From Draconibacterium orientale (lineage in GTDB: Bacteria; Bacteroidota; Bacteroidia; Bacteroidales; Prolixibacteraceae): a stretch of DNA of 64,000 bases. A program made the position numbers and the translations under genes. The DNA is taken from assembly GCF_000626635.1 (NCBI RefSeq), contig NZ_CP007451.1:4198501-4262500 (forward strand), given 5' to 3'. The notes under the pieces are model-generated. The model had not been told where the DNA came from. It did not search any database and saw only the letters and a program-made list of their open reading frames with translations. Below, one piece after another: positions 51,510-64,000 of the stretch (within the stretch, counting starts at the first letter, position 1; every line of letters begins with the position of its first letter).

Positions 51510-52250
51510 TCATCTGTTTTTTAACACCTCATTTAATACGACTTGCGCTGCTTTGGCTTCATCTTTTCCTACGGTTGCCTGAATAATTGAAACGAATTCC
51601 TGTAACTGATCAGGCGTATAACCCACATTCAAACAAATTGATAAATGACTGCGCAACATCGGTTCTGCACTGCCAATTGCACTAATAACCGATACCGTTA
51701 CCAATTCCCGTTCTGCGTATGTTAAAACATCACGATCAAAAATATCGGCAAACAGGTGCTCCTTCAGGAAGATCTCTATTATTGGGGCAAAAGCCGCATA
51801 ACCACTTTGAGGTCCGTCTAAAGGCCTTCCGATCAATGTTTCCAGGTTTGCTTTCCCACGGTCGTATTTACTGCGTTCGTCGTTTAACAGTGAGGCTTCA
51901 ACACCTGTTTCATCAGTAATCCCTTTAGCTTTACGTTCATCCATTACTTCCATAAAGGTTTGTAATCCGCGAATACTGCGTGGAAAACCGCAATAGGCGT
52001 ATAGATGAACCATAATTTCTTTAATCTCATTAACCGTGAGCCCCGCCTCTAATCCAGCATTCAATGCAGGTTTCAATTGTTCTAACTCGCCCTGAGCTGT
52101 AAATGCAGCAATTGGAATTATGCTTTGTTGTTTTTCGGTTAAAGTCGTACTCTGATCACTTTTATACTCTGCTAATACGCTCACTTGAAGGCCTACTAAA
52201 GCCATAAATATGAGTATTACGAGTTTACTTATTTTCCTCATTTTCGTCAT
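51510..52250 (-). CDS. Secreted carboxymuconolactone decarboxylase family protein
   Basis: A 246-residue protein with a signal peptide (hydrophobic stretch ending near VLAEY) and two carboxymuconolactone decarboxylase/AhpD-like modules. The first is IPIAAFTAQGELEQLKPALNAGLEAGLTVNEIKEIMVHLYAYCGFPRSI; the second is FDRDVLTYAERELVTVSVISAIGSAEPMLRSHLSICLNVGYTPDQLQE. The AhpD CxxC pair is absent; only a single Cys occurs in each module, so peroxidase activity of the AhpD type is unlikely. Its gene begins 11 bp after the carboxylesterase gene. Confidence 0.87.
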   Translation of the reverse strand: MTKMRKISKLVILIFMALVGLQVSVLAEYKSDQSTTLTEKQQSIIPIAAFTAQGELEQLKPALNAGLEAGLTVNEIKEIMVHLYAYCGFPRSIRGLQTFMEVMDERKAKGITDETGVEASLLNDERSKYDRGKANLETLIGRPLDGPQSGYAAFAPIIEIFLKEHLFADIFDRDVLTYAERELVTVSVISAIGSAEPMLRSHLSICLNVGYTPDQLQEFVSIIQATVGKDEAKAAQVVLNEVLKNR

Positions 52251-52260
52251 GTCTTAATTT

Positions 52261-53907
52261 TTAAATACCACCTCGTGTCTGGATTCTAGCCCTGTTTTTA
52301 AATGCTTTTTCAATAACATCCAGTCGGGCTTTCGTAGGATCAGTCTCGCCAACAACTTTGCCATCACGCTGAAATTCGAGGATCTGGTTCGTTTCGGGTT
52401 TATTTAACGGCCAATTCGGCAATCCCTCACCATTCGGATCACCTGTTTTTGCAAAGTTAACCCAGTAAGCATTCATTGTCCGGGCTACATCCTGGTCTTC
52501 TGCTGTCGGAGTTGGTGGTGGCCCGAAACCTCCTCCTTCCCCAAGAATATCGAATGCAAAAGAAATATCGGTTCCATGTCCGGGACCATAGGGCGCTCTT
52601 TCTTTCATGTAAGAAGGCACATAATCAAACAGGAAAATGTAGGCTGGTTCACCAATGGCTGTAAAGGCTCTTGCGGAAAACCGGGCCGGTTCAGCCCAAA
52701 CCCAGTCGGTATTAAATCGTGCCTGCACCTCTGCGAATTCTTTGGTTCCATCCGGATCGTAAGCTGCTTTTGCCTCATTCTCCAAATCACCGAACAGAGC
52801 GAAAAGTTCTTCTTTTGTTGTGCTTGAATTAACGAAACCTCCGCCAATTTCGGCACTGTTGTTTCCGATCATCAGCGGAACTTTTGCCTGTCTGCCTGCA
52901 TTGTATGCACTTTCGGCAGTTTCTACTACAAACTTCCCGTCCAGAATCGGGCCTGGATAAATACGCGGACCTCCCTGTCCATCAGTCTCTCCACCCCCAA
53001 CAATTTTGACAACAGGAAGGGCACGAAGTTTAGCCAGTGCTTCTGCATCAGTTCCTTCAATACCATGCATTTTAGCAAAATTTATCCCAATCGTTTCGGC
53101 TGAAACCGGGTAAAGTGCATCAGCATTTTCCTTATTCATTGGTCTGCCGGTAAGAACTCCGTCGCGTCCACCGCTTGAATGACCGATTGCCTTATGGAAA
53201 AGACCGCTAGCTGTTGGGATCGTAAGAAGTGAGTGTACAGAAACACCGCCTGCAGAGAAGCCAAAAATGGTTACATTATTTGGATCGCCTCCAAAAGCAG
53301 AAATATTTTCCTGTACCCATTTCAATGCAGCAATCTGGTCCATAAAAGCATAACTGCCTTTAGCTTCTTCAGGACGCTCTGCACTCAATGCAGGGAAAGC
53401 AAAATGACCAAGGCGTCCAAGACGATAATTCATTGAAACCAGGATCACGCCTTGTTTGGCAAATCCTGCTCCGTTTGTATTACCGCTGCCTCCTGTAAAA
53501 CCACCACCATGAATCCAAACCATAACAGGCAATTTTGCTCCCTCTTTGGCAGTGGCAGGAGTCCATACATTGAGGTAAAGGCAATCTTCTGATGAACCTT
53601 GCTGGATGGTTCCCGCAGCAGCACCCCAGCCTACTGCGGCACAAGTAGGACCAAATTCTGAAGCATCGCGAACTCCTTCCCAGGCTTCTACCGGTTGTGG
53701 CGGACGCCAGCGAAATTCGCCAACGGGAGGTGCTGCAAAAGGAATTCCCTTGAAACTGGAGACATCGCCTTCAGTAACACCTCTAACAACACCTGATTTT
53801 GTTTTTATTTCTGGCCCGGAAGTCTGTTTTGTATTTCCAGATGCCGATTGCACATCTATTGATATTGCCAATAGAAAAGAAAGAAATCCGACTAGTAAGT
53901 TTTTCAT
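52261..53907 (-). CDS. Secreted type-B carboxylesterase
   Basis: A 548-residue alpha/beta hydrolase of the carboxylesterase/cholinesterase family. Signal peptide at the N-terminus, oxyanion-hole motif HGGGF (133-137), EDCLYLNVWTP, nucleophile GFSAG (Ser 218), and later GHGTDISFAF with the probable catalytic His. It hydrolyses carboxylic esters in the periplasm; the natural substrate is unknown. It is transcribed with the neighbouring NTF2-like gene (36 bp upstream) and decarboxylase-like gene (11 bp downstream). Confidence 0.92.
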   Translation of the reverse strand: MKNLLVGFLSFLLAISIDVQSASGNTKQTSGPEIKTKSGVVRGVTEGDVSSFKGIPFAAPPVGEFRWRPPQPVEAWEGVRDASEFGPTCAAVGWGAAAGTIQQGSSEDCLYLNVWTPATAKEGAKLPVMVWIHGGGFTGGSGNTNGAGFAKQGVILVSMNYRLGRLGHFAFPALSAERPEEAKGSYAFMDQIAALKWVQENISAFGGDPNNVTIFGFSAGGVSVHSLLTIPTASGLFHKAIGHSSGGRDGVLTGRPMNKENADALYPVSAETIGINFAKMHGIEGTDAEALAKLRALPVVKIVGGGETDGQGGPRIYPGPILDGKFVVETAESAYNAGRQAKVPLMIGNNSAEIGGGFVNSSTTKEELFALFGDLENEAKAAYDPDGTKEFAEVQARFNTDWVWAEPARFSARAFTAIGEPAYIFLFDYVPSYMKERAPYGPGHGTDISFAFDILGEGGGFGPPPTPTAEDQDVARTMNAYWVNFAKTGDPNGEGLPNWPLNKPETNQILEFQRDGKVVGETDPTKARLDVIEKAFKNRARIQTRGGI

Positions 53908-53943: not shown

Positions 53944-54390
53944 TTAATGATCTCCGGGAGTCATTAATCGAGTGAATGAAAGTGCCCCAAGCATCCATTT
54001 ACCGTCTTGTTTTATATAAACTTCGGTAACTTCAAATGGATTGGTAACTTCATTTCTGCCAACCACAGCAAGCAGATCAATTCGGTTTAAAAGAATGGCA
54101 GTATTATCGATAATATTAACCGATACTTCGTGTATGTCAGCCTTTTTGTACCAAATTCCACCACTTTTAATGATGGCAAGTTCCTGTTCTGTTCCCCAGT
54201 GCCCACCCATGTGAACAAACTCGGCTTTTTGGTGAAAGAGTTTACTTAACTCATCGACATTTTTATCTGACATCCATTGCCATTTGTCTTTTGAAAGCTG
54301 AATGATTTCACGTTTCGCATCTGTATCTTGAGCGAATGAGTACTGTCCCCATGAAAGTAGTACAATTAGTCCGATAAGTTTGAATCTCAT
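53944..54390 (-). CDS. Secreted NTF2-like (DUF4440) protein, paralogue B
   Basis: A 148-residue exported NTF2-fold protein (signal peptide ending near SFAQ). It is similar along its length to 49293-49745: LSKDKWQWMSDKNVDELSKLFHQKAEFVHMGGHWG against the corresponding stretch there, and a matching TEVYIKQDGKWMLGALSFT end. Two paralogues in one cluster suggest related substrates or a duplicated step. It lies 27 bp downstream of an alpha/beta hydrolase gene on the same strand. Confidence 0.83.
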   Translation of the reverse strand: MRFKLIGLIVLLSWGQYSFAQDTDAKREIIQLSKDKWQWMSDKNVDELSKLFHQKAEFVHMGGHWGTEQELAIIKSGGIWYKKADIHEVSVNIIDNTAILLNRIDLLAVVGRNEVTNPFEVTEVYIKQDGKWMLGALSFTRLMTPGDH

Positions 54391-54417: not shown

Positions 54418-55470
54418 TTATAAATTTTCCCCAAAAAATTCTTTCAATTTATTCATTGCCTGCTCGACATATTCAGGAACATAATAGGTTTGAATATGCG
54501 TGGCTCCCGGTATCAGGAATAATTCCTTTTCTGTAGTTCCGGTAGCTTTTTTAAAAGCATCCTCAGTCATATAGTAGGTGTCTGCTTTGCTTCCGGCCAT
54601 CATTAACAAAGGCTGATTGATTAAGTCCATATTTGAAGTTGCATCAAATGCCATCAAATCGAGCAAACTGCTCATTGTGTATCGAAAAGTAGAGTTTGGA
54701 TGAGCATGGGTTCTGTTGTAATAATAATGTCCTTCACGATAAAGATCAAAGGGCATTTTATCAGCAACTTTATCGCTTGCTACCGTGTTGGCGGCATAGA
54801 GCACTTCTCCTCCTGCAGCTTCCTGTGCACGGGCATCAGAGGCTTGTTTTAACCGCTCCTGAATCGTTTCTAACTGAGAATCCCTGAATCCGTTTTTTCT
54901 TACAATACCTGAATTAAACATACTTAGTGTTGCCACTGCCTTAAATCGCTTATCGGTTTGTGCTGCAGCCAGTGTATAACCACCGCCGCCACAAACTCCC
55001 AATACACCAAGTTGTTCAGCATTTACACCAGCATATTGAGTAAGATAATCTGCCATTCCGCGAATGTCATTAATACGGTTGGCGGGTTTATCCACGTTAC
55101 GGGGTTCACCACCACTGGCTCCCTGGTACGATGCATCAGCAGCAATGGTAATGTAACCCGATTCTGCCAAACGCTGTGCATACAATCCGGCAACCTGCTC
55201 CTTTACTCCTCCGTTAGGGTGTGCAACAACTATAGCAGGGTAACTTTTTGAAGGATCATAATTCGCAGGTGTATAAACATTGGCCGCGATTTCAATACCG
55301 CTTAGGTCATAGCTAATCGGATGAATATTTACTTCGCCTGATTTATTCTCAGTTATGGCATCTTTATATACAAGACCGAACGGATTTTCAATCTTGTTTT
55401 GACCAACTGCAATAAGGCTTGTTGTCATTACCATGATTATTAAAACTTGATTCTTTATTATTTTTTTCAT
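54418..55470 (-). CDS. Alpha/beta hydrolase with Cys nucleophile (dienelactone-hydrolase-like)
   Basis: A 350-residue secreted alpha/beta hydrolase (signal peptide to about residue 23). The nucleophile elbow is GVCGGGG with Cys 160 in place of serine, as in dienelactone hydrolase and YcjY-type enzymes. VVAHPNGGVKEQ carries the oxyanion region and a late GATHIQTYY the probable catalytic His. It would open lactones or cleave activated esters. In a cluster that also holds a carboxymuconolactone-decarboxylase-like protein, a role in ring-cleavage or lactone chemistry is attractive but unproven. Confidence 0.87.
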   Translation of the reverse strand: MKKIIKNQVLIIMVMTTSLIAVGQNKIENPFGLVYKDAITENKSGEVNIHPISYDLSGIEIAANVYTPANYDPSKSYPAIVVAHPNGGVKEQVAGLYAQRLAESGYITIAADASYQGASGGEPRNVDKPANRINDIRGMADYLTQYAGVNAEQLGVLGVCGGGGYTLAAAQTDKRFKAVATLSMFNSGIVRKNGFRDSQLETIQERLKQASDARAQEAAGGEVLYAANTVASDKVADKMPFDLYREGHYYYNRTHAHPNSTFRYTMSSLLDLMAFDATSNMDLINQPLLMMAGSKADTYYMTEDAFKKATGTTEKELFLIPGATHIQTYYVPEYVEQAMNKLKEFFGENL

Positions 55471-55538: not shown

Positions 55539-56597
55539 CTATTCATCAATATGTTGTTGCCAAAACTTAACGGCAAGATCAACCCAGCCGTCAGCATCCG
55601 TTCCGGTCCCCAACCCAAATCCGTGACCGGCGTTTTCGTATCTTTGATATTCAACTTCAACACCTGCGTTTCTAAGATTTTGAACCCGTCTTTCTACTGT
55701 ATTTACATTGGCAATCCAGTCGTTAGCGGCCACCGTTATAAAGGCCGGAGAAAAATCACTGGAATAGCTTGATTGTCCGGTGTAGGCAATAACTGCTGTG
55801 ACCGGTTTTGCAATACTGTCGCCACCAAAAGCTTCTACTCCTCTTAAAGCTATGTTTCCAGCCATTCTTGCTCCGGCCGATCCTCCCCAAACTGAATAAT
55901 ATTTTGTATCTACACCCAACGATTCAGCGTTGCGAAAAGTATATGATATGGCTGCAGCCAGATCTTCAGTTGCCATTTGTCCACTCCCGATACGGTATCG
56001 AATAACGAAGGCATTCAGCCCTGATTCGCTAATTCTATTTGCTATTGGGAAGCCTTCATGCAGCGACCCGACATAGGAAAAACCGCCACCAGGGCAAATA
56101 ATCGCAAACGGAGCTCCCGGATTTCCTCGTAAAAAGAATAAGCCGGTATTTTCCTTACCCGTATCATGTTGCTTTTGATCTTCTGTGTAGAATTCGTAAA
56201 AGATTGTCTTGCCTTCATTCACATCGTCAATCATGCGATTCAGGGCATCAACCACATCTCCAGAATTCACGTCCCCGTGATAGGGCATCAGTGAGCCCAC
56301 ATTTGAAAGTGGAGTGTTGTAAACACCGGAATTGTTATCCCGGGGTAACAGTAATTCTCCAAATCCTTTAAATGCCTTATGATTTACAATATCACTAACA
56401 TTATTACTGGTTGTCAAATGCTTGTCCATTTCATCGGATTCTTTAGAAAATTTTGTTTCATAGCTATCATTTTCTGCCTGGATTGGATCGCTGTTCGTAC
56501 AACTTAAAAAGATGACCATTAAAAGGGATATTATTGATCTGTGGGCGAATCCTACATCCTTCCTTATTATCCTATATGTATCCCAATGTGTTGTCAT
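55539..56597 (-). CDS. Alpha/beta hydrolase lipoprotein (esterase)
   Basis: A 352-residue esterase of the BD-FAE/acetylxylan-esterase-like group. An N-terminal lipobox IFLSC (Cys 33) follows an unusually long 20-residue n-region. An oxyanion-hole stretch CPGGGFSYVG comes next, then the nucleophile GGSAGA (Ser 240) and a late ENAGHGFG with the catalytic His. It acts on esters at the membrane surface. The start is uncertain because no methionine lies nearer to the hydrophobic segment. Confidence 0.83.
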   Translation of the reverse strand: MTTHWDTYRIIRKDVGFAHRSIISLLMVIFLSCTNSDPIQAENDSYETKFSKESDEMDKHLTTSNNVSDIVNHKAFKGFGELLLPRDNNSGVYNTPLSNVGSLMPYHGDVNSGDVVDALNRMIDDVNEGKTIFYEFYTEDQKQHDTGKENTGLFFLRGNPGAPFAIICPGGGFSYVGSLHEGFPIANRISESGLNAFVIRYRIGSGQMATEDLAAAISYTFRNAESLGVDTKYYSVWGGSAGARMAGNIALRGVEAFGGDSIAKPVTAVIAYTGQSSYSSDFSPAFITVAANDWIANVNTVERRVQNLRNAGVEVEYQRYENAGHGFGLGTGTDADGWVDLAVKFWQQHIDE

Positions 56598-56713: not shown

Positions 56714-57712
<999 letters not shown>

Positions 57713-57719
57713 TCACAAA

Positions 57720-59731
<2,012 letters not shown>

Positions 59732-59758: not shown

Positions 59759-59766
59759 CAAAGGTA
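59759..59766 (-). promoter_or_regulatory. -7 promoter element of esterase/AKR operon
   Basis: On the minus strand TACCTTTG matches TAnnTTTG exactly, 28 bp upstream of the start at 59731. The nearer ATTACGG half-site of the direct repeat begins 31 bp away, placing it over the -33 region as expected for AraC-type activation. Confidence 0.6.
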
Positions 59767-59790
59767 AGGTACTGTTATTAAACGGTTTTT

Positions 59791-59826
59791 ATACAAATTA
59801 CGGAATTGAGTGCCATAATTACGGAT
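59791..59826. promoter_or_regulatory. AraC-type direct-repeat operator, site B
   Basis: Two ATTACGG half-sites at 59797-59803 and 59818-59824 (21-bp period), preceded by ATACAA and followed by AT. The layout and most bases match site A at 62703-62738. Direct repeats two helical turns apart are typical for AraC-family dimers. The site sits upstream of the esterase operon. Confidence 0.65.
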
Positions 59827-59845
59827 GTTGGAATTTTGATGAGTT

Positions 59846-62077
59846 TTATATATTCAACCAGTATGTCAATTTCAAATTAATTGACCGGAATCGAGGTCTG
59901 AAATTATCTGTATTGTAATTGTCGTTATATACAAGGTGCAAATCCGACAAAGGAGCAAAACGCCACTGAAGACGTGAATTAATACCTAGATTGCTTCTTT
60001 GGTTGCTGTATTGAACCAGCGTCGACCAGAATAAAGATTTACTAAAAGTTATATCCGCTTTTGGTGAAAGCAGCCAAATATCAGCATCTGCATGTGAATC
60101 GGGCAAGCGAATGCCATCGTAGTTAAAGGCCACGCTAAATGTTGCCCATGGTTGCACACGATAGGCTACTTCGCCACCAACAGAATAAATACTACCCTTG
60201 TAAAACTCGCCAAGAGTAGTTTCAAAATTGTAGGTAAACAAATTAGCCAGATTCGATTGATAAGTACCCTGGAATTGATTAAAAGTATAGCTCCGGTTCC
60301 CCGGAAGAGGTACTGCTCCCGGCGTTCGGGTTGGATCGAAATCGTTAAACAGATAAATGTAATTATTTACAAGGCTTAATTCCATTTCTGCCGAGTTTTT
60401 AAATAAGGCAGTCCAGCTAAAGGTATTTTCGTAGTCAGTTTGTTTTAAATCCAGACTTGGCCGTAACCACCGTAACGAAAGCAAACGAAAAGCATTTGAA
60501 TTGATAATCCCGTTTGAGGGGTAGAAAGTGCGGGTTACAGAATTCCCAATCTTAAAAATATCTCTTCTCGGTATAAATCCAAGGTCAGATGTAAAATCCT
60601 CATTCACATATACAAAATCACTGGACAACCGCCATTTACGTGTGTTAAAAACGAGATAAGCCTGCGATGCCAGATTGCCCTTTGAATCATTAGGTTGAAA
60701 TGATTTATGAAGAAAGAATTTCCCAGTCCATTTATCGTTGGCGGAGGCAAGGTTATAATCCAATCCAACAACACGGTTATATTCTTTACTACTATCCAGA
60801 AAGTCGTAATCTTTAAAGGCTTGACGGTTAATTGCGAAGAATCCGATATTTGAACGTGCAAACATTTTCTTTTGAACTGCCAGCATCATATTGTTATTTG
60901 ATGCAATCCCGTTGTCAATATCTTCATCGGTCTGCACATTCAGAAATCCTAAACGCCAGTCTTCATTCAGCTTTCCGCTTAAACGTACACCACCTACAAT
61001 CCTGTTTTCAATGGTGTTGCCGGCATTGTTACGAGCCAAACCAATTCTTCGCGAAAAAAACGGATTGGCATCACGACTGCTACCGAAGCTTCCGAACAGG
61101 TCGCTGTTATCGATAAAAAACTGCCTTTTTTCGGGTAAGAAAACTTCAAAACGGGTAAGGTTGGTAAAAATGGCATCCACTTCAGTGTTCGAAAAATCCG
61201 GATTGATTGTAATATCCAGGTTCATACTGTTTCCGATAGGAATTTTTGCATCGCCTCCAAACTTCAGTTTACTATCGGTGGTTCCCAGCTCAAAGTCTTT
61301 TGATGCCAGTGCATTTATGTATGGAATAACCGAAAAGGGAGTACGCGATTTTCCAAGAGGCTTTTCAAATTCCATGGTATTCATAAAAGCCAGACTTGAA
61401 AGCAATTGATTTTGCGGAACGTGTGCCCATGCACTTTGTTCGTTGGCTCCAATATCCCAGCGATAACACTGCATCCGCCATTCGGTGTCACCCTCCCTGA
61501 ACTTTATTGAGGAAAATGGTATGGCTGCTTCAAGAATAAAATAGCCATCATTTATTTTGCTTTCCAGTTGCCATTTCTGGTCCCAGTTGGCATTAAATCC
61601 GGCTGCAGCTCCACCCTGAGAAATAAAGGCTTCACGTTGAACTCCATAAGGAGTCATACCGAAAAGAAAGGCGGTATTTCCATCCTTAAATGTATCAAAC
61701 ATCAGGCTTACATTATCACTGGTTGTTCCTCTGAAATCGCGACGCAAGGAAGAAACTACATATTTCTCTGAAGATGCTTCGCCCCGTACTCCTATGTATA
61801 GAAAATGATCATTGTACACTAACATAAATTCAGTAGGATACTTTGCTCGTGCTGTATCGGTTGGGAAAAATTGCCAGAAATCTCCTTCTTTATCAGCTTG
61901 TTGCCATGCTGCTTCATCTAAAATTCCATCCAATTTTATCGGTTCGGTGATGTAATTTACGCGTATCGCTCTTCCGTAATCCTGAGCAAATAGAGAAAAT
62001 GTAAGAAAAAGTAGTGCCAGTAAAGAAATACTGGTTTTTATGATTTGTTTTATGATCACAATCGTCCTTCGATTCAT
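59846..62077 (-). CDS. DUF5916 outer-membrane protein with CBM9-like domain
   Basis: A 743-residue outer-membrane protein. After a signal peptide (ending near LFAQ) comes a carbohydrate-binding family-9-like domain (AIRVNYITEPIKLDGILDEAAWQQADKEGDFWQFFPTD). The DUF5916 beta-barrel then starts with YINALASKDF and FGGDAKIPIGNSMNLDITINPDFSNTEVDA and ends in a barrel strand (LKLTYWLNI). The family is widespread in Bacteroidota and is of unknown transport or binding role. It is encoded 49 bp downstream of a cupin gene and appears to share its promoter. Confidence 0.88.
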   Translation of the reverse strand: MNRRTIVIIKQIIKTSISLLALLFLTFSLFAQDYGRAIRVNYITEPIKLDGILDEAAWQQADKEGDFWQFFPTDTARAKYPTEFMLVYNDHFLYIGVRGEASSEKYVVSSLRRDFRGTTSDNVSLMFDTFKDGNTAFLFGMTPYGVQREAFISQGGAAAGFNANWDQKWQLESKINDGYFILEAAIPFSSIKFREGDTEWRMQCYRWDIGANEQSAWAHVPQNQLLSSLAFMNTMEFEKPLGKSRTPFSVIPYINALASKDFELGTTDSKLKFGGDAKIPIGNSMNLDITINPDFSNTEVDAIFTNLTRFEVFLPEKRQFFIDNSDLFGSFGSSRDANPFFSRRIGLARNNAGNTIENRIVGGVRLSGKLNEDWRLGFLNVQTDEDIDNGIASNNNMMLAVQKKMFARSNIGFFAINRQAFKDYDFLDSSKEYNRVVGLDYNLASANDKWTGKFFLHKSFQPNDSKGNLASQAYLVFNTRKWRLSSDFVYVNEDFTSDLGFIPRRDIFKIGNSVTRTFYPSNGIINSNAFRLLSLRWLRPSLDLKQTDYENTFSWTALFKNSAEMELSLVNNYIYLFNDFDPTRTPGAVPLPGNRSYTFNQFQGTYQSNLANLFTYNFETTLGEFYKGSIYSVGGEVAYRVQPWATFSVAFNYDGIRLPDSHADADIWLLSPKADITFSKSLFWSTLVQYSNQRSNLGINSRLQWRFAPLSDLHLVYNDNYNTDNFRPRFRSINLKLTYWLNI

Positions 62078-62126
62078 AGTAAAGATTATAAGTAATATTG
62101 ATATTGGTTTTATTCTTACTTTATAG

Positions 62127-62621
62127 TCACTGTTTCAGCGACAGGTAATCTTCATCGCTAACCGGGCCGGACCATTCCGTCGCACCTTTCAAGCGGCTGG
62201 TAATAGCCAACTGAACAAACTCAGTGTCGACACTTGCACCATGCCAATGCAGGATATTAGGTCTGATATTAACCACTTCACCTTTATTTACCACCCTGAT
62301 CGGACTACCTTTTTCCTGATAATAACCTACGCCATCAAGGCAAATCAGAATCTGGCCATCAGGATGCGTGTGCCAGTTTGACCTTGCTCCGGGTTCAAAA
62401 ACTACGTTGCCTACTGCTATGTGGTTTAAACTATCGGCAGCCAACAATCCTTCCAGCCAGGCTGTTCCTACAAAATTATTGTTCGTTATTTTCTCTCCTT
62501 TTGGAAAAATTGGTTCGGTCTGAGTTTCGGAAATTTTACCCTGACTGGAATTATCTGTATTTTGGCAGGAGCTAAATGCAAAAACACAAACTACGATGCA
62601 AACTGTCAAAATCTTTTTCAT
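62127..62621 (-). CDS. Cupin-domain lipoprotein
   Basis: A 164-residue exported cupin (lipobox FSSC, Cys near 19). The metal-binding motif is RSNWHTHPDGQILICLDGVGYYQEKG with both His residues, and a second motif with His follows (NILHWHGASVD). It resembles the mandelonitrile-lyase/carboxymuconolactone-decarboxylase-associated cupins, which often occur with AKRs and carboxymuconolactone decarboxylases. It begins the cupin-DUF5916 operon and is divergent from the broken AraC gene. Confidence 0.87.
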   Translation of the reverse strand: MKKILTVCIVVCVFAFSSCQNTDNSSQGKISETQTEPIFPKGEKITNNNFVGTAWLEGLLAADSLNHIAVGNVVFEPGARSNWHTHPDGQILICLDGVGYYQEKGSPIRVVNKGEVVNIRPNILHWHGASVDTEFVQLAITSRLKGATEWSGPVSDEDYLSLKQ

Positions 62622-62670
62622 TTTATTGCTCTTTTAATTGATTATAATAATCTGTAAACTAATCACTTTA

Positions 62671-62678
62671 CAAATATC
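62671..62678 (-). promoter_or_regulatory. -7-like element of cupin/DUF5916 operon
   Basis: On the minus strand GATATTTG matches seven of eight positions of TAnnTTTG, counting n as free, 50 bp upstream of the cupin start. It is exactly 31 bp from the nearer ATTACGG half-site of site A, the same distance as at the esterase promoter. Confidence 0.5.
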
Positions 62679-62702
62679 GCTGATGTAATGTTCAATGTTT
62701 GT

Positions 62703-62738
62703 ATACATATTACGGCAGTTATAACCAAGATTACGGAT
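62703..62738. promoter_or_regulatory. AraC-type direct-repeat operator, site A
   Basis: Two ATTACGG half-sites at 62709-62715 and 62730-62736 (21-bp period), preceded by ATACAT and followed by AT. It shares the ATACAnATTACGG and CCA-NN-ATTACGGAT pattern with site B at 59791-59826. It lies between the cupin operon and the divergent AraC gene and could control both. Confidence 0.65.
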
Positions 62739-62775
62739 TTGCCTTGTTCGGGTTTAATTATGAATAAATTAAGAG

Positions 62776-62783
62776 TAAATTTG
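62776..62783 (+). promoter_or_regulatory. -7 promoter element of AraC gene
   Basis: TAAATTTG matches TAnnTTTG exactly, 25 bp upstream of the AraC start at 62809. Site A lies 38 bp further upstream, so self-regulation is possible. Confidence 0.5.
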
Positions 62784-62808: not shown

Positions 62809-63703
62809 ATGGAAGAGATCCTAAAATTTGACACGATCAAAGAATATAATTTGTTTAATAACAATGAAACCATGCATCCTTTGGTAGGCATTGTAGATTT
62901 ATCAAAAGCAGATCCACGGAAAGCCAGGCGGCTCAGCTATGGCTTTTATACCATCTTTTTTTAAAGAGATAAACTGTGGTGATCTTCGTTATGGATGTAA
63001 TTATTACGATTATGACGAGGGCACACTTATATTCCTGGCTCCAAACCAGGTTATCGGAGAAAATAAGGATTATCAATATCAGCCACAAGGAAAGGCATTA
63101 GTATTCCATCCTGATTTTATTTTAGGTACTTCGTTGGGCAAGAAAATCCACGATTACGCATTTTTTTCATACGATGTGAACGAAGCCTTACATCTTTCAA
63201 TTAAGGAAAGGGAGATCATTTTAGATTGCTTCAACAAAATTGATTATGAGTTACATCAAAATATGGATAAACACACAGCAAACCTGGTGATTTCAAATAT
63301 TGAACTATTCCTGAATTACTGCATCCGATTTTACGACAGGCAGTTTATTACCCGTATAAATGTAAATCAGAGTATATTAACCCGTTTCGATACCTTGCTT
63401 AACGATTATCTTCACTCATATAAAACCAAAGAATCTGGTTTGCCTACGGTTGCCTATTTTGCCAACTTGCTCCATCTATCAGCGAACTATTTAGGCGATA
63501 CCTTAAAAAAGGAAACCGGTAAATCAGCCCAGGAACACATACAATTAAAATTAATCAGTGTAGCAAAAGAACGCATCTTCGATACAGGAAAAAGTATTTC
63601 AGAAATTGCTTATGAACTGGGATATAAATCGCCTCAGCATTTTAACAGGATGTTTAAAAAAGCTACGGGACAAACGCCGAATGCTTACCGCAATTTGAAT
63701 TAA
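62809..63703 (+). pseudogene. AraC-family regulator gene, frameshifted
   Basis: From ATG 62809 the frame reads MEEILKFDTIKEYNLFNNNE, HPLVGIVDLSKADPRKARRLSYGFYTIFF and stops. This is the standard N-terminus of a Bacteroidota AraC regulator. After one surplus T in a run of seven (62956-62962), the protein continues as KEINCGDLRYGCNYYDYDEGTLIFLAPNQVI and ends with a normal AraC HTH (KSISEIAYELGYKSPQHFNRMFKKATGQTPNAYR). With six T residues the gene would encode one protein of 297 residues, the family's usual length. As given, only a shortened product of up to 254 residues from ATG 62939 is possible. It may be a true mutation, slippage-prone, or a sequencing error. Confidence 0.8.
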
Positions 63704-63895
63704 AGAACGGAGGTTCATGTTTTAACATGAGAGCACTGTTTTTGAATACTTAAAATTACGTTACAACTTTTTAAATAAAAGCCCTTAAATCTGAAGTTCA
63801 TAATTAATAAGGTTTCTTATTTCATAATAGCCTTGCTTAAAATGGTTAATTTACATTTGTTTTTTTGAATGTCCGTAATTAGTCACAACCAGACC

Positions 63896-63978
63896 GTCAC
63901 CCTGGACTTATTTCAGGGTCTTTTTTGCAAATAGCTGATTATTAGTGGCGAAAGATGCTGAAACAAGTTCAGCATGAC
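63896..63978. repeat. Inverted pair of intergenic hairpin repeats
   Basis: The unit at 63896-63920 (GTCACCCTGGACTTATTTCA and on) and the unit at 63954-63978 (GATGCTGAAACAAGTTCAGC and on) are inverted imperfect copies. Each is itself a hairpin (CCCTG...CAGGG and GCTGAA...TTCAGC). They lie downstream of the AraC gene in a region with no other feature and resemble dispersed intergenic repeats of this phylum. A TTTTTT run follows the first unit, so it may act as terminator for the AraC gene. Confidence 0.55.
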
Positions 63979-64000
63979 GTGCTAAATATTAATTATGACA

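Follow-up and report, generated by a model that had tools for sequence, protein, structure and literature searches.

Matched AraC-type operators predicted to join two neighbouring operons of Draconibacterium orientale in one regulon

Organization of the locus

The window, a 64,000-nucleotide stretch of the Draconibacterium orientale contig NZ_CP007451.1 (positions 4,198,501 to 4,262,500), contains two matched direct-repeat operators, A (62702–62736) and B (59790–59824), both read on the minus strand and accompanied by the gene of an AraC-type regulator. Operator A separates the divergent regulator gene (araC; 62809–63703, plus strand, with a start inferred from relatives and a frame that is interrupted early) from genes encoding a small cupin and a DUF5916 protein, and operator B fronts an operon of hydrolases and aldo/keto reductases, a layout that agrees with the initial annotation of this DNA. 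We propose that A and B are the operators of the adjacent AraC-type regulator, which is highly likely, judging from the sequence evidence below, to activate both operons. Since A and B are copies of an operator that, in many Bacteroidota, adjoins a regulator of this type, the two operons very probably belong to a single small regulon whose enzymes handle aldehydes and esters.

The pattern ATTACGG-N14-ATTACGG is exact at both sites (62709–62736 in A and 59797–59824 in B), with a period of 21 bp and the common flanks ATACA on the 5′ side and AT on the 3′ side, just as first annotated. On the minus strand, the distal half-site of operator A consists of CCGTAAT (62730–62736) and TGGTT (62723–62727), and its proximal half-site of CCGTAAT (62709–62715) and GTATA (62702–62706). 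Operator B is built in the same way, from CCGTAAT (59818–59824) and TGGCA (59811–59815) in the distal half-site and CCGTAAT (59797–59803) and GTATA (59790–59794) in the proximal one. The ATACA flank is the second box of the proximal half-site. Spacers and downstream sequence are not the same at the two sites. A minus-strand −7 element follows each repeat at the annotated distance of 31 bp: GATATTTG (62671–62678) in the cupin–DUF5916 promoter and TACCTTTG (59759–59766) in the hydrolase–aldo/keto reductase promoter. Both had been described as TAnnTTTG; the element at B fits this form, whereas the one at A is one base off. The araC promoter has its own −7 element, TAAATTTG, on the plus strand (62776–62783).

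The first gene behind operator A (62127–62621, minus strand) encodes a small cupin (Cupin_2) with a lipoprotein-like start by eye, which scores 124 bits against a mandelonitrile lyase model with a cut-off of 140. It is followed by the gene of the DUF5916 protein (59846–62077, minus strand; PF19313), whose cluster is found behind the operator in 6 of 137 orthologue loci (window included; loci were not merged in the per-locus counts, whether over 136 or 137 loci or for secondary sites) and once directly behind a secondary site. Behind operator B, and again on the minus strand, the first gene (58589–59731) encodes a 380-residue protein that looks hydrolase-like by eye; it matches no Pfam or NCBIfam family at an E value of 0.001, and its cluster lies behind the operator in 49 of 137 loci. 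Next come two aldo/keto reductases (both PF00248), of which the first (57720–58571) is DkgA-like, with 264 bits against the DkgA NCBIfam model, below its cut-off of 425, and the second lies at 56714–57697. The same strand then carries the genes of an alpha/beta hydrolase (55539–56597; PF07859), a dienelactone-hydrolase-like alpha/beta hydrolase (54418–55470; PF02129 and PF01738), a DUF4440 or SnoaL-like protein (53944–54390; PF14534), a carboxylesterase/lipase-like protein (52261–53907) with lipase matches far below cut-off, the cluster of which is found behind the operator in 24 of 137 loci, and a protein of the carboxymuconolactone decarboxylase (CMD) family (51510–52250; PF02627).

All these genes (62621 to 51510) are encoded on the same strand. 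The DUF5916 gene ends 114 bp before the hydrolase gene begins, and operator B lies in this gap; besides starting a separate operon, B may therefore serve as an internal second promoter. A terminator scan covering the region listed no terminator-like site in this gap. A single transcription unit, with B as a second promoter inside it, is therefore a real possibility in place of two operons, if short of an even chance; nothing decisive speaks against it, and it is compatible with control of both gene groups by the adjacent regulator.

Uniqueness of the operator pair in the genome

The genome consists of one contig of 5,132,075 bases. ATTACGG-N14-ATTACGG has two exact matches in it, A and B, and is thus not scattered over many unrelated places, the outcome that the initial annotation had named as fatal to its proposal. 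The pattern occurs with one mismatch at 4 further places and with two mismatches at 84. Only the exact pair stands out, since the total of 90 matches with up to two mismatches is close to the 86 obtained with a reversed-pattern control. A fuller motif, in which the bare pattern is extended by the ATAC flank and by the CC of the spacer, matches perfectly at A and B only; next come just two matches with three mismatches (4 in total versus 6 for the control). As A and B are the sole perfect matches, the regulon in this genome would consist of two sites, as far as the motif shows.

A third candidate within the window, at 63873–63900 (two mismatches), was rejected: its sequence occurs three times in the genome and a terminator-like hairpin follows it. 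Within 63873–63980, this operator-like sequence is accompanied by the hairpin (63899–63919) and by another stretch that resembles a palindrome; with its three genomic copies and these adjoining structures, it appears to be a dispersed intergenic element.

Conservation of the operator with the regulator

Relatives of the AraC protein were drawn from the best 80 of at least 590 matches in a GTDB-based genome collection; 79 of these 80 records are assigned to Bacteroidota and one is unassigned, and they span at least six orders. A second set was drawn from 140 genomes of the window's own family, matches spanning fewer than 181 query residues being dropped, and shares two genomes with the first (L035/L169 and L038/L170). 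Orthologues were defined by an identity of at least 55%.

The operator stands at a near-constant distance upstream of the AraC gene in most of the best 80 loci. Within the family, all 56 orthologues examined have it within 500 bases, with at most 3 mismatches in 18 positions; none of 31 distant relatives has it on that strand at up to 5 mismatches. When both strands were considered and up to 4 mismatches in 20 positions were allowed, the operator was found upstream of 128 of 135 orthologues versus 1 of 32 distant relatives, and shuffled upstream sequences averaged about 9 mismatches (identical proteins were counted once, and L059, with 39 bases upstream, and L095, with short upstream DNA, were left out of the 135). 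A FastTree tree, which includes L059, places the 32 distant relatives on one side of a branch with a support of 99 and flags long branches among them. The operator tracks the AraC orthologue group, not the paralogues. Spaced-word counts gave a similar picture: 53 versus 11 in shuffled sequence for the 56 orthologues, and no shared operator above the shuffled level for the 31 distant relatives (top count 9 versus 8).

A scan that did not make use of the protein provided an independent view. Across the 140 family genomes, the fuller motif with at most one mismatch gave 23 matches in 20 genomes versus none for the control. Of these 20 genomes, 19 hold the regulator, so that the motif is present in 19 of 48 genomes with the regulator versus 1 of 92 without it (Fisher p = 1.3e-9; the 48/92 split was counted by eye, and three partial regulator matches were taken as present). 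The exception, G023, is a genome that is 76% complete. In the 136 orthologue loci (window excluded; 3.8 Mb over both strands), 177 full-motif sites with at most 4 mismatches were found versus 1 in each of two controls. Comparison of orthologous promoters, which the initial annotation had suggested as a check, shows that the motif is conserved and so is its spacing to the promoter. L167 and L168, the two closest relatives found, have A as well as B, each site being kept separately; in L168, the flank upstream of site A has diverged and the operator and the −7 element are retained.

These results bear on the possibility that A and B match by chance, or through recent duplication of one promoter. 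In favour of it, there are just two copies in the genome, 2.9 kb apart. However, A and B differ in spacers and downstream sequence, each is kept separately in two relatives, and controls yield 0–1 matches against 23 and 177 for the full motif. The original argument that the pair is hard to explain by chance is borne out, and the cross-species conservation contradicts this alternative, to which we attach a negligible probability. Being both unique in the genome and conserved with the AraC orthologue group, the motif supports the interpretation of A and B as belonging to one regulon.

Architecture of the target promoters

A consensus was derived from 127 distinct promoters, identical ones being counted once. 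On the target strand it reads CMGTAA(T/A)-N2-TGGTA-N7-CMGTAAT-N2-GTATA, followed after about 23 bases by nAnnTTTG. Each half-site is made of two boxes, CMGTAAT and, after a short gap, GGTA or GTATA, and is directly repeated every 21 bp. A tandem direct-repeat operator adjoining the promoter, a trait of AraC/XylS regulators, is therefore present in these 127 promoters. TTTG is found at offset 34 in 89 promoters and at offset 33 in 20, that is, in 109 of 127, and other offsets average 0.76. TTT(G) stands at the target spacing in 116 of 127 promoters, and in these the 8-mer starts with GA in 56, TA in 35 and CA in 22; the GA-starting form at site A is thus the commonest form in relatives. TAnnTTTG was discarded as the defining −7 element of target promoters, its strict form being present in just 31 of 127. 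No conserved −33 TTG was detected: beyond the proximal CMGTAAT, no single offset between 4 and 15 has it in more than 5 of 127 promoters. It is at the expected place of the −33 element that the proximal half-site ends. On the araC side, 57 of 74 primary sites have TAnnTTTG at an offset of 39 or 40. One orthologue (L102) has two tandem operators with TATAC rather than TACC as the second box, a possible specificity variant.

With the window included, 29 of the 137 loci have secondary intergenic sites that head a gene, 38 sites in all; this count excludes sites upstream of a second regulator copy (L056 and L109), and the L072 site is the upstream site inverted. TTTG is located at offset 33 or 34 in 32 of the 38. 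In six loci (L197, L230, L237, L240, L241 and L242), GTATA is replaced at the secondary sites by a GGT-like second box, and TTTG is one base closer (offset 33). Several of these front a gene set comprising DUF3737 (Pfam) and an aminotransferase and a MATE-like transporter (both by eye).

The regulator could bind these operators and yet act mainly as a repressor or autorepressor, with a ligand releasing repression. In keeping with such a role, the operator is also located upstream of the araC promoter, which has the better −7 element. However, all of the operator lies upstream of the −7 element in target promoters, which have no conserved −33 TTG and for the most part a degenerate −7, and genes away from the regulator are headed by secondary sites of identical spacing; all of this fits an activator. 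We regard repression as improbable.

The genes behind the operators vary across loci. The 117 distinct first genes behind primary operators include 44 aldo/keto reductases, 10 cupins, 7 CMD proteins, 7 DUF4440 proteins and 6 iron alcohol dehydrogenases, the family to which YqhD belongs. The 40 first genes behind secondary sites include 6 CMD proteins and 5 aldo/keto reductases. Pfam tallies are given for cupins and small proteins because single-linkage clustering merged cupins with other small proteins (cluster 0).

The AraC-type regulator

The open part of the araC frame spans 62939–63703 and encodes 254 residues. Intact frames of 297 residues are found in two close relatives, the nearest one 98% and the other 85% identical. 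The window protein contains the C-terminal double helix-turn-helix domain of AraC/XylS regulators (HTH_18, PF12833), which passes the cut-off with an E value of 1.1e-20 (9.8e-20 in an intact orthologue), and a Pfam scan assigned no family to the N-terminal domain of the intact orthologue. In Foldseek searches, the N-terminal part resembles the regulatory domains of RhaR and AraC (target TM 0.52–0.62). The Galbibacter orthologue, as modelled by AlphaFold (mean pLDDT 82.9, pTM 0.65), is rich in strands in its N-terminal domain and helical both in the middle and at the DNA-binding end, and appears similar to AraC-type regulators by Foldseek. Six residues of the recognition domain (G186, Q202, K204, K218, K230 and H234, numbered as in the 254-residue open reading frame) separate orthologues from paralogues, and two cysteines, C56 and C140, are present in 91% and 82% of 135 orthologues versus 14% and 17% of 29 paralogues.

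The true binder might be another AraC-type protein, such as a hybrid two-component system, with the adjacent AraC being incidental. The adjacent frame is broken, the genome holds 22 further matches to the AraC query, and hybrid two-component systems (HTCS) of Bacteroides are described, in the part of the source consulted, as having direct-repeat motifs averaging 21 bp apart (PMC3878776). Against this, the motif tracks this particular orthologue group and lies at a nearly fixed distance upstream of this AraC across Bacteroidota, which makes a different binder very improbable. As for the regulator itself, about 297 residues long when intact, domain scans found helix-turn-helix domains only, and neither a histidine kinase nor a receiver.

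Discussion

Several observations weigh against activation of both operons by the adjacent regulator. Its frame is broken in this genome, early, within a T-rich tract. Sequencing or assembly may be at fault, the tract may be switchable, or the gene may be a recent pseudogene; because of the break, the regulon may be off or altered in this strain. No recognisable site is present within 500 bases upstream in 6 of the 135 orthologues; for two of them, L044 and L093, sites occur at other places in the locus, and none was found in the loci L046, L053, L064 and L066. One further orthologue (L197) has a site with 5 mismatches. Conversely, a distant relative (L210, 49.6% identity) has a 3-mismatch operator, the sole case among 32; its locus holds three AraC copies. 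The bare pattern is unique as a pair in this genome but fails as a family-wide marker, with 27 exact matches versus 29 for the control (16 of the 29 in one genome), and it is the fuller motif that discriminates. The best full-length Foldseek matches of the Galbibacter model have a query TM of 0.29–0.31 and a root mean square deviation near 21 Å, and a superposition this poor leaves the domain arrangement unsupported. We infer activation over repression from operator position only. Finally, the variety of the fronted genes, 44 of 117 being aldo/keto reductases, makes the inducer unsure.

We suggest that two AraC DNA-binding domains would sit in tandem on one helix face at the direct repeat and, standing in for a −33 element, would recruit RNA polymerase in class II-like activation. 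Operator A also faces the better −7 element of araC itself, which would allow autoregulation. Together, A and B would switch on cupin–DUF5916 and the hydrolase/aldo-keto reductase/CMD operon. The signal may be a carbonyl compound, another electrophile or a precursor bound by the N-terminal domain. That the inducer is perhaps a carbonyl or electrophile is suggested by the target families and by analogy with YqhC, and is the weakest step of this mechanism.

One-component AraC activators with direct-repeat operators are already known as a kind. At araI1–I2, E. coli AraC has two directly repeated half-sites with a period of 21 bp, of which the one nearer the promoter abuts the −35/−33 region. The system described here shares the 21-bp direct repeat and the position of the proximal half-site, and its AraC-type regulator probably has the two-domain build as well; it differs in box sequences, in its Bacteroidota −7 promoter and in its non-sugar target enzymes. 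A second parallel is E. coli YqhC, which, according to the portion of the source consulted, activates yqhD and dkgA, encoding an aldehyde reductase and the DkgA reductase (PMC8262776). Here, operon B includes the DkgA-like aldo/keto reductase, which scores below the model cut-off, and iron alcohol dehydrogenases are 6 of the 117 first genes behind primary operators, with no YqhD-type member among the window genes scanned. Unlike that of YqhC, this regulon has hydrolases, a cupin, a CMD protein and DUF5916. Within the same phylum, the Bacteroides HTCS share an AraC-type DNA-binding domain and the direct repeats of similar spacing; as far as the consulted part of the source goes, they are hybrid two-component proteins for polysaccharide genes (PMC3878776), whereas the present regulator is a one-component protein of about 297 residues with small carbonyl and ester enzymes as targets. 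Bacteroides RhaR is likewise a one-component AraC-family regulator of Bacteroidetes studied by comparative genomics, but for rhamnose catabolism, in the consulted part of its source (PMC3870299); it is compared here by description rather than by motif letters.

A broader scenario, offered tentatively, is that, throughout Bacteroidota, a single ancestral AraC-type regulator has retained the same operator and the same promoter design lacking a −33 element, with the many enzymes behind it (aldo/keto reductases, iron and zinc alcohol dehydrogenases, CMD proteins, cupins, hydrolases, flavodoxins and DUF5916) being swapped in and out. It would then constitute the general carbonyl/electrophile response of the phylum, possibly sensed through the orthologue-specific C56 and C140.

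A literature search covering titles and the beginnings of abstracts returned no description of this regulator–operator pair, so that unnamed ‘AraC family regulators’ become testable. For a group of regulators in at least six orders of Bacteroidota, the analysis predicts the operator, the architecture of the promoters and the regulon. With no conserved −33 TTG and a fixed activator spacing, their promoters would offer a clean model of how class II-like activation works with the −7 element of Bacteroidota.

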